Source: Bacteroidetes bacterium RIFCSPLOWO2_12_FULL_35_15
Lineage (GTDB): Bacteria > Bacteroidota > Bacteroidia > 2-12-FULL-35-15
Direction of reading: 5' to 3'
Length of the DNA stretch: 38,009 bases
Assembly: GCA_001769385.1 (NCBI GenBank)
Contig: MEPB01000103.1
Location: 1-38,009 of the forward strand
In this document: positions 14,715-16,434 of the stretch, in pieces
Position numbering within the stretch: position 1 is the stretch's first letter
Layout: every line of letters starts with the position of its first letter
Position numbers and translations under genes: made by a program
Notes under the pieces: model-generated
What the model was told of the DNA's origin: nothing
The model's input: the letters and a program-made list of their open reading frames with translations, nothing else
Database searches by the model: none

Positions 14715-15980
14715 TTATTTAAAATTCTTTAATAACGAAATATAAGCTCCTTGTCCACATGTTTTGTTTGGTGCAATGTATCCTTCAATATTATGAGACC
14801 CTATGTAAACTATGAATCCTTTACCAAAATTAGCACGGGCACCTATTCCATAATTAAAATTCCCATAGCCTCCATATCCTGCTGTTGCTGAAATTGCAAC
14901 ATGATCGTTTATTGAAAAATTGCCTTTCACATAAAAAAGTAAGTTATAGTTTGCATTAAATACATAGCGAATTCCTTCCGTTAATTGAACATGCTTGCTT
15001 AGTTGTGTTTCAAACGATAAGTTTAAAATAGCCGGTAAAGAAACTGAAACAGATTGTTTTTTTAACGGTGCAACGGTACTCATGATACTATCTTTAGATG
15101 TATTGGCAAATGTCGAATCTTGTAATTGATAAATACTGTTTACCGTAAATCCTGAATAATGAAAAAGGGAATCCTGATTTAAATATAATGATTGCTTATT
15201 AAAACGAATTAAACCGATATCAGAAACCGATACCCGAAGCTTTGAGTTACCTATGCGCGTTTTGTAAGGTGCTTCAAAATAAATATCTACGCTTGCGCCA
15301 AATCCATTAGAAGCACCAAGTCCATTTGTTGCAGTGTCTGATTGAGCAACCTGTAAAGAGGTATTGAAATCAATATTTTGTCCATCTTCGGAAGTAAATA
15401 ACTCTGCCTTTTTTGCATGGATGGATTTATATTGTTCGCCTTTTAAAAAAGAAAGTCCAATTCCAAAACGTGAGGAGGTATCCGATTTTGTAGATACTAT
15501 TCCTATCTGAAATTGCTGGTACCTAAGTAAACTTAGATCAAAATTATTGAAATCTGCTGTTTTTCCTGCAAAATCAGCATTGCCATAAAAACCTATTTTG
15601 AACAGATCTTTTGAAAAACGAGCATCAAAATGTTCTCTGTCCTTTATACTAAAAAACAAACAAGTGTTTTTTTTGTGAAAAAATGAATCAGTTTTAAATA
15701 CTCCGTAAATACTATAATTTATATTAGCTCCAACACGATTGTTATTTTTTACGCGATCTAAAACAGAATTTTTTAGATCAGTATCAAGATAATTGCCATT
15801 GTAAAATTTGCTAATGAACTGACTTGTCAACGCATTTGAATTCAAATCGTAATCAGCCATTAAGCCAATCCTCGTTTTTGAAGAATCAGGAAATTCATCG
15901 GCAAAAAAAGATTGAATTTGTGCTTGTACTGAAAAGTGTATGACTACAAAAAATAAGATTATGTTAAAATTTTTTTTCAC
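14715..15980 (-). CDS. Putative outer-membrane barrel protein (DUF5723-like)
   Basis: A 421-aa protein with a signal peptide (1-20, ending VQAQ) and many alternating strands. It has glycine- and aromatic-rich C-terminal hairpins (GYGGYGNFNYGIGARANFGKG), as in FadL/OmpP1-like and PorV-like barrels. The opening (MADYDLNSNALTSQFISKFY, then DLKNSVLDRVKNNNRVGANINY) fits the DUF5723 proteins I recall from Bacteroidota; that family name is tentative. It lies downstream of a lipoprotein gene on the same strand, with the GxxExxY cassette between them. Without the cassette the gap would be about 35 bp. The function is unknown. Confidence 0.55.
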   Translation of the reverse strand: MKKNFNIILFFVVIHFSVQAQIQSFFADEFPDSSKTRIGLMADYDLNSNALTSQFISKFYNGNYLDTDLKNSVLDRVKNNNRVGANINYSIYGVFKTDSFFHKKNTCLFFSIKDREHFDARFSKDLFKIGFYGNADFAGKTADFNNFDLSLLRYQQFQIGIVSTKSDTSSRFGIGLSFLKGEQYKSIHAKKAELFTSEDGQNIDFNTSLQVAQSDTATNGLGASNGFGASVDIYFEAPYKTRIGNSKLRVSVSDIGLIRFNKQSLYLNQDSLFHYSGFTVNSIYQLQDSTFANTSKDSIMSTVAPLKKQSVSVSLPAILNLSFETQLSKHVQLTEGIRYVFNANYNLLFYVKGNFSINDHVAISATAGYGGYGNFNYGIGARANFGKGFIVYIGSHNIEGYIAPNKTCGQGAYISLLKNFK

Positions 15981-16008: not shown

Positions 16009-16434
16009 GCCACAGATTCACAGATTATAAAATTACTCTTTTTGTTATCAATGAATTTTCACCAAAGTTTACAATTAAACCTAAGGAACATTTAGATATT
16101 GCTAAATAGTTTTTGTCCAATTATAGTGTTCATCTACTATCCCTTTTTGTGCTTTTACTTCCAATACAATGTTGTCAAACACAACAAAATCAGCGAAAAA
16201 ATAATGCGGAAGAATTATTTCTTTGTATTCTACTTCATATTTCTTCTCTCGTTCATATTGAATTTTTTTCTTCTTAAATTCATATTCAATTGCATCTTTA
16301 TAAACTATCTCGAGCAAACCTTTTCCTAAAATACGATGAACCTCCATACATACGCCAATGATTTGATAAGATTCTTTTTGCAACGGATATTCTTTTTCTG
16401 AATAATTCATACATTTAATCTGTGAATCTGTGGC
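16009..16434 (-). mobile_element. GxxExxY cassette bounded by 18-bp inverted repeats
   Basis: GCCACAGATTCACAGATT (16009-16026) and its exact reverse complement (16417-16434) enclose one gene of the GxxExxY/PDDEXK_3 family. The left repeat overlaps the last two bases of the ancestral stop codon, and the right repeat ends 6 bp before the start codon, so the unit is almost all gene plus ends. Outside the repeats a further imperfect pairing (TAAAAAATT against GTTTTTTTA) continues the symmetry. It lies between the lipoprotein stop (16441) and the start of the beta-barrel gene (15980). No transposase is encoded, so any movement would need factors in trans. Confidence 0.7.
16025..16410 (-). pseudogene. 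GxxExxY protein (PDDEXK_3 nuclease-like), frameshifted
   Basis: The open frame from ATG 16410 gives 102 residues ending DEHYNWTKTI at 16102. The family motif G31-LL-E34-IV-Y37 and nuclease-like residues D74, E84 and K86 (ADFVVFDN, LEVKAQ) are present. The expected C-terminus is found in the next frame: after the A-run at 16111-16115, YLAISKCSLGLIVNFGEN and then SLITKRVIL lead to a stop at 16025-16027. One additional A would restore a 127-aa protein, close to the usual family length. It is therefore either a real one-base deletion or a homopolymer sequencing error. The biochemical role of the family is not established. Confidence 0.8.

Follow-up and report, generated by a model that had tools for sequence, protein, structure and literature searches.

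The closest described systems are the REPIN-RAYT elements. A RAYT is a transposase of the HUH Y1 type, and the REP repeats that accompany it are GC-rich palindromes that fold singly. The unit analysed here, a cassette in which one gene of the GxxExxY family lies between inverted arms, resembles these elements in that a small gene is enclosed by its own inverted repeats, in the occurrence of many short gene-less repeat pairs, and in that the type of repeat follows the protein lineage. It differs in its enzyme, a predicted PD-(D/E)XK nuclease instead of an HUH Y1 transposase, and in its arms, which are built of tandem 7-bp words and not of GC-rich palindromes that each fold alone. The initial annotation had proposed a REP/RAYT-like arrangement, which holds as an analogy with regard to the single gene, its own repeats and the gene-less inverted pairs, but not as a class assignment, because the defining transposase is absent. 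By analogy, the cassette appears to work like a REPIN-RAYT element without being a member of that group.

The intervening sequences of 23S rRNA that carry an S23 gene (TIGR02436) also place a single gene of similar length within a terminal stem, but their protein belongs to another family, their repeats use another vocabulary, and they lie in rRNA, whereas the GxxExxY cassette lies between two protein genes. MITEs and insertion sequences share with the cassette the inverted ends, the short gene-less derivatives and the insertion between genes; the cassette differs from them in having no transposase gene and no target-site duplication above chance. Nucleases of the Cas4/RecB type share the predicted fold and the catalytic residues of the GxxExxY protein, which differs in being a stand-alone protein of 128 aa.

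The window, i.e. the whole stretch of 38,009 nucleotides that was analysed, contains the cassette with the following features.

16009..16026, forward strand: left arm, on the stop side of the gene, consisting of GC followed by two tandem copies of CACAGATT
16417..16434, reverse strand: right arm, the left-arm sequence perfectly inverted, with 6 bp between it and the ATG
16102..16410, reverse strand: GxxExxY gene (TIGR04256, PF13366), 102 aa as it stands, with a frameshifted C-terminal part
16025..16027, reverse strand: ancestral stop codon TAA, overlapping the left arm by 2 bases, placed by eye against the second copy, L018
16009..16434, reverse strand: whole cassette (arm, gene, arm) of 426 bp, aligned to L018
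16441..18033, reverse strand: upstream neighbour, an open reading frame labelled "lipoprotein" in the initial annotation
14715..15980, reverse strand: downstream neighbour, an open reading frame labelled "barrel gene" in the initial annotation

The enclosure of one GxxExxY gene by a perfect 18-bp inverted repeat, as initially described, was found exactly as claimed: the repeat, GCCACAGATTCACAGATT, occupies 16009-16026 on the forward and 16417-16434 on the reverse strand. With up to three mismatches allowed the two arms were the sole matches in the window, and shuffled sequences gave 0.01 matches on average. The ATG does lie six bases inward of the right arm and the ancestral stop codon does overlap the left one, as judged by eye against L018. 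The neighbouring genes, which had been estimated to be about 35 bp apart without the unit, would be separated by 28 + 6 = 34 bp measured outside the arms. The gene scored 88.3 bits against TIGR04256 (cut-off 35) and 82.7 bits against PF13366 (cut-off 22) and, with both curated cut-offs exceeded, is a member of the GxxExxY family. It is the only gene in the cassette, and an HUH Y1 transposase is absent between the repeats; the window gave no Rfam match at the gathering score. The C-terminal reading frame is broken, and the last residues of the family run on in another frame to the TAA at 16025-16027. The cassette is thus a frameshifted, probably dead copy of the element, and the working form has to be sought among its relatives.

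Further copies were present in the same genome (G000, 5.39 Mb in 110 contigs). An intact second cassette, L018 on contig C56, shares the arm type but lies in a different gene context. The proteins of the window and of L018 are 80% identical over residues 1-107, and the two cassettes are densely similar as far as the outer arm edges, beyond which the similarity is AT-rich only. A first search pattern, CACAGATTNNCACAGATT, matched nothing because its two words are directly adjacent, and a version with a variable gap was used instead. The pattern CACAGATTCACAGATT occurred 14 times in the genome, versus no occurrence of the reversed pattern; several of these copies are paired in inverted orientation at distances of about 45-275 bp and enclose no full gene, and in some pairs the second arm is degenerate. 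One of them is a relic cassette at positions 1501-1790 of L001, which consists of an arm and the first codons of the gene, followed by another inverted element, TCGTCATTGCGAGGAACGAAGCAATC, inside. The genome contains eight intact GxxExxY genes besides broken ones. Six of the eight (L015, L017, L018, L019, L021 and L022) have inverted arms with a score of at least 13, and the arms of L016 and L020 score 10. The arms differ from gene to gene (GCCGCGAAGACGCTAAGGCGCAAAG, GGTACGCAGATC..., CCACATAGAAACATAG and ACGAATACGAATTTATACGAAT, among others), and the 18-mer of the window is therefore one dialect of a family trait.

For the family as a whole, the upstream flank of each gene was aligned locally with the reverse complement of the downstream flank, and the best match gave the arm score. 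The first set came from 59 genomes, 53 of which gave a GxxExxY match; the loci of the better-scoring matches were taken, which is not a random draw. A profile built in this analysis found 119 genes, of which six were left out for a short flank or a partial domain; the broken gene of the window lies outside the remaining 113. Arms with a score of at least 14 were present at 83 of the 113 genes compared with 4.4% of 2225 mismatched flank pairs, a count that does not represent independent trials, since the genes are kin by descent and some are one insertion in related species. Such arms were found at 2 of 54 neighbouring open reading frames. The 83 cassettes have a median length of 534 bp (range 408-756 bp) and a median arm of 29 bp, and the median distances from arm to start and from stop to arm are both 22 bp.

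Two replicates gave a similar picture. For the named replicate, species genomes were scanned with one motif, LGPGLLESxY, and the best 80 of 579 confirmed stretches were taken, 8 of which were left out; of this set at least L337 is also in the first set (as L097 of genome G010). Arms scoring at least 13 occurred at 41 of the 72 usable loci (mismatched pairs, 10.8%), including those of cyanobacteria (L342, L347, L376), Anaerolineae (L373) and Opitutaceae (L371). For the phylum replicate, 30 loci came from a draw of 148 genomes, and 16 of the 28 usable ones had arms scoring at least 13 (mismatched pairs, 5.4%; two loci left out). No arms at the threshold were found at 30 of the 113 genes of the first set, 31 of the 72 of the named set and 12 of the 28 of the phylum set. 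YraN (PF02021), which we take to have the same nuclease fold as the GxxExxY protein, served as a size-matched nuclease control in a procedure similar to the family test; it had arms scoring at least 13 at 0 of 27 loci (3 of 30 left out). The corresponding figure for the barrel gene was 0 of 26 (2 of 28 listed loci left out). The suggestion in the initial annotation that similar repeats occur near other GxxExxY genes agreed with all three sets, in each of which most of the genes have inverted arms. The expectation that the 18-mer itself would flank such genes stood in part: inverted arms are a trait of the family, but the exact 18-mer is not shared and lineage-specific versions take its place.

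The arms consist of 7-bp words such as CACAGAG, CGCAAAG, CACTAAG and CGCAGAT, mostly 8-10 bp apart. In the upstream arms of the 90 cassettes with scores of at least 13, the pattern C[AG]C[ATG][AG]A[GT] occurred 170 times in the sense and never in the antisense direction. It was present in 76 of the 90 arms, and 79 of 94 successive words were spaced by 8, 9 or 10 bp. Among the 83 arms with the higher score 70 contained the word, versus 3.8 expected after shuffling. As the pattern was written after the first set had been seen, the replicates are the fairer test; they gave 67 sense and 0 antisense occurrences in the named set and 31 and 2, respectively, in the phylum set.

The arms also follow the protein. 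Mean arm similarity was 0.25 for proteins of 20-30% identity and reached 0.72 for those at least 70% identical, and the two measures were correlated with a rho of 0.40, whereas the highest value among 500 permutations was 0.21. Part of this correlation stems from linked descent, which is not separable with these data. Among the 87 protein pairs of at least 70% identity the outer flanks were shared in 35 and not in 52, and in these 52 the arms were still alike (mean 0.67). When cassettes not preselected for arms were compared, the two arms of one cassette were more like each other than like the opposite arms of a related cassette; this held in 290 of 310 pairs with 60-70% identity, in 83 of 102 at 70-80%, in 16 of 27 at 80-90% and in 2 of 7 above. 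The best match thus lies within the cassette, which points to arms that remain complementary during divergence, either because pairing is part of their function or because one arm is copied from the other. In L078 and L065 the reading frame of the gene can be extended through the upstream arm (e.g. VHHHRGTEGTEEG), and annotated GxxExxY proteins may therefore carry spurious N-termini made of repeat sequence.

In 25 diverse aligned members of the family E34, Y37, D74, E84, K86, Y102 and F116 were invariant. The catalytic pattern of PD-(D/E)XK enzymes, with an upstream E34, D74 and E84-K86 (ExK), was found in all 25. Of the QhxxY-like motif, characteristic of RecB/Cas4-type enzymes, Y102 was present in 25 of 25 and Q in 23 of 25, with W in L018, the closest relative of the window protein, and I in L104. 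A structural model of the L018 protein (pLDDT 95.6, pTM 0.87) gave as its best match the Cas4 protein SSO0001 (4ic1; Foldseek E 3e-4), with a Z of 10.3 and an rmsd of 5.1 over 101 residues; further matches with Z values of 6-8 were largely nucleases and individually weak. Holliday-junction resolvases appeared in this list with Z values of 6-7.3, too weak for a claim of kinship. The search for a sequence relative with a solved structure gave no clear hit (best E 0.22). On the model, the GxxExxY protein is predicted to be a minimal PD-(D/E)XK nuclease of the RecB/Cas4 type with about 128 residues. Of 65 close pairs 32 had a usable dS, the rest being saturated or unusable; in these 32 the median dN/dS was 0.07, and the gene is under purifying selection. 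Membership in a defence system was rejected: in PADLOC the focal-clade protein had no match, and another protein had a weak one to Cas4b (E 0.0096). In PHROGs, too, no match was obtained with the focal-clade protein, and the other matched one family of unknown function, weakly. Phages and plasmids were also rejected as the main vehicle, as one GxxExxY query matched 0 of 50,697 phage records and 8 of 72,556 plasmid records.

Empty sites in close relatives, which the initial annotation had asked for, were found at both positions examined. Neither of the two outcomes that it named as refuting, repeats missing around other GxxExxY genes and no empty site in any relative, was thus observed. At the window site the upstream neighbour stood directly beside the barrel gene, at estimated gaps of up to 200 bp, in 28 of the 29 loci fetched from the same genus; at the remaining barrel locus, L047, the upstream neighbour was not in the stretch examined. 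In the closest relative, G024, in which the upstream neighbour is 89% and the barrel gene 84% identical, 11 bp lie between the stop codon of the upstream neighbour and the start of the barrel gene. The cassette is thus absent at this site in 29 of 29 readable relatives of the genus (28 fetched loci and G024), a count that leaves out three more members of the genus with a barrel match. In L042 and L043 the same gap holds other repeat-like sequence of the ACGCTGAT and AATTTGAAAATG types, so that it may be hit repeatedly. The second site is that of L021, an ACGAAT-type cassette of G000 that sits between two genes which we take from their sequences to be scoA and scoB. In G024, with a scoA 97% identical, the gap between them is 26 bp and the L021 cassette is absent. 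Both genes were in view in 27 of 29 relatives' loci, and the gap among these was estimated at no more than 213 bp in 21, held a four-helix-bundle gene in five (L388, L389, L393, L394 and L405) and consisted of 394 bp of unidentified sequence in one (L409).

Target-site duplications were sought in two ways. With exact boundaries and k = 2-9 in 62 cassettes, k = 5 alone stood out, with 3 observed versus 0.46 expected. With symmetric shifts of the boundaries in 83 cassettes, 16 duplications of at least 4 bp were observed versus 10.3 expected, 7 versus 3.7 of at least 5 bp, 1 versus 1.45 of at least 6 bp and 1 versus 0.49 of at least 7 bp; the candidates of at least 5 bp consisted of A and T only. 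A duplication was therefore rejected as a signature of the element, being not convincingly above the mismatched pairs in either the 62 or the 83 cassettes, and a direct mark of a transposition chemistry is accordingly lacking. A weak AT-rich target duplication is possible. An insertion sequence with a DDE transposase was ruled out on the same duplication result together with the single PF13366 gene.

We give a probability of roughly 60% to the reading that the unit is a single-gene mobile cassette which works in the manner of REPIN-RAYT with an unrelated enzyme. The element would consist of an inverted arm, one GxxExxY nuclease gene and a second inverted arm, about 0.4-0.75 kb in all. The nuclease would recognise its own arms, most likely as a hairpin or cruciform when they are single-stranded, e.g. 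at replication forks, and cutting or trimming at the folded arms would release the unit and allow its re-insertion, in cis as well as in trans. We infer an action of the nuclease on its own arms from the specific association, the invariant catalytic residues and the purifying selection, and the proposed action on folded arms draws on the arm-to-arm matching; the nuclease presumably also moves the cassette. The structure of the unit, its insertion as judged against empty sites, the lack of a clear duplication and the co-inheritance of gene and arms are shown by the data, and co-inheritance would be expected of a passenger too. The genes at which no arms reached the threshold and the replacement of the motif Q in L018 and L104 also weigh against this reading.

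A passenger role is the main alternative, although we consider it unlikely. The elements would then be moved by a RAYT, by the four-helix-bundle system or by host replication or recombination acting on hairpins, and the GxxExxY gene would ride inside. The distribution of the arm core, CRCAGATTCRCAGATT, bears on this. It was found in 30 of the 59 genomes, among the matches listed, and its reversed control had zero matches in the genomes listed. Eleven short stretches were read, each containing an inverted pair that spans 44 to 316 bp with both arms included; these pairs enclose no gene and are in most cases too short for it, and four gene-less examples fold with complete terminal stems. Such short derivatives occur in the same genome as the cassette and in related genomes, with dozens in some. 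Seven genomes of the genus contain a focal-clade gene, 58-100% identical to that of L018, and the eight intact focal-clade genes read had arms of the matching type or a recognisable variant. The copies of CRCAGATTCRCAGATT in these seven genomes numbered 0, 5, 8, 10, 33, 35 and 47, compared with a median of 2 in the 29 others (one-sided P = 0.011); the genome without an exact copy was G008.

G032 speaks for a passenger. This genome, 98% complete, contains the highest number of arm-core copies, 193, and no focal-clade gene was among its GxxExxY matches listed; six of its seven matches were read, and all had other arms. No other finding weighs as heavily against an element moved strictly by itself; loss of the gene, cross-recognition by another GxxExxY protein or another mobiliser could each account for this genome. 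The focal-clade gene was likewise not found in G019 (33 copies, 82% complete) and G018 (20 copies, 64% complete), whose assemblies are incomplete. A possible outside mobiliser is widespread, as Y1_Tnp matches were present in 29 of 36 genomes of the genus. However, the repeat type tracks the enclosed family. The Y1_Tnp (RAYT-type) genes had inverted repeats with scores of at least 14 at 10 of 23 loci (mismatched pairs, 2.8%; 7 of 30 loci left out), mostly GC-rich palindromes. The four-helix-bundle genes (TIGR02436/S23; L166-L195, 6 of 30 loci left out) had them at 20 of 24 usable loci (mismatched pairs, 10%), with a third vocabulary (e.g. TTTGAGATGTGAGA or GTTAGTTGTTAG) and the GxxExxY word in 0 of 20. 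This distribution of repeat vocabularies speaks against one shared mobiliser, and nothing else here argues as strongly that a repeat is defined by the protein encoded within it instead of by a common transposase from outside. The recurrence of the word pattern and its polarity in other phyla, together with a gene under purifying selection with intact catalytic residues, also stands against a passenger.

In another explanation, which seems improbable, the arms act as an operator or form an RNA stem, and in this way control a nuclease serving the host, the spread of the repeats being secondary; an RNA stem could be processed, for example by RNase III as in the intervening sequences of 23S rRNA. 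The arms can indeed pair around the gene (z -3.95) and, as described above, keep their complementarity while diverging. A precedent is the S23 intervening sequence of Coxiella, which is 428 nt long and has a terminal stem in which RNase III cleaves it (PMC4990558). The empty sites and the copies in different contexts nevertheless fit a mobile element better, and the many gene-less pairs and a copy number that varies patchily between genomes, from 0 to 20 among the matches listed, also stand against control of a host function. Homing, in which the nuclease cuts pre-existing repeat pairs and repair across the arms copies the gene in, so that gene-less pairs are unoccupied targets, would agree with the many gene-less pairs with identical ends but is the least probable explanation, as both sites examined in the closest relative, G024, have no repeat pair and lack the whole unit.

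The GxxExxY family is rarely mentioned, by name or accession, in the open-licence literature searched, namely in three papers and once in each. The same search gave no description of GxxExxY genes linked to repeats, which does not establish their absence from print. The genes themselves occurred, among the matches listed, in 73 of the 148 genomes of the phylum-wide draw. We regard the element as new in kind on account of its enzyme; if the gene is a passenger, the element belongs to a known kind. The cassettes might further be treated as a class of their own, in which a RecB/Cas4-like nuclease of about 128 residues reads folded ends of 7-bp words, with the CACAGAG/CGCAAAG/CGCAGATT-type repeats of Bacteroidota and other phyla as derivatives and the S23 cassettes as a parallel class at the same intergenic sites; the chances of this proposal seem to us even. 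With this packaging, a nuclease family that had been an orphan acquires a role that can be tested, a possible origin is indicated for a set of interspersed repeats, and a natural catalogue of protein/DNA-word pairs becomes available from which sequence specificity could be read. Should the nuclease indeed move the cassette that encodes it, the cassette would be mobile DNA that carries no recombinase of the DDE, HUH, serine or tyrosine class.

Several of the copies in G032 (L294-L299) are elements of about 110 bp with an inner palindrome, e.g. AAATCGCAAAGCGATTTT. L298 and L299 are longer and contain nested inverted repeats, one TTGTAG...CTACAA-like and one GTCATCCCG-like.
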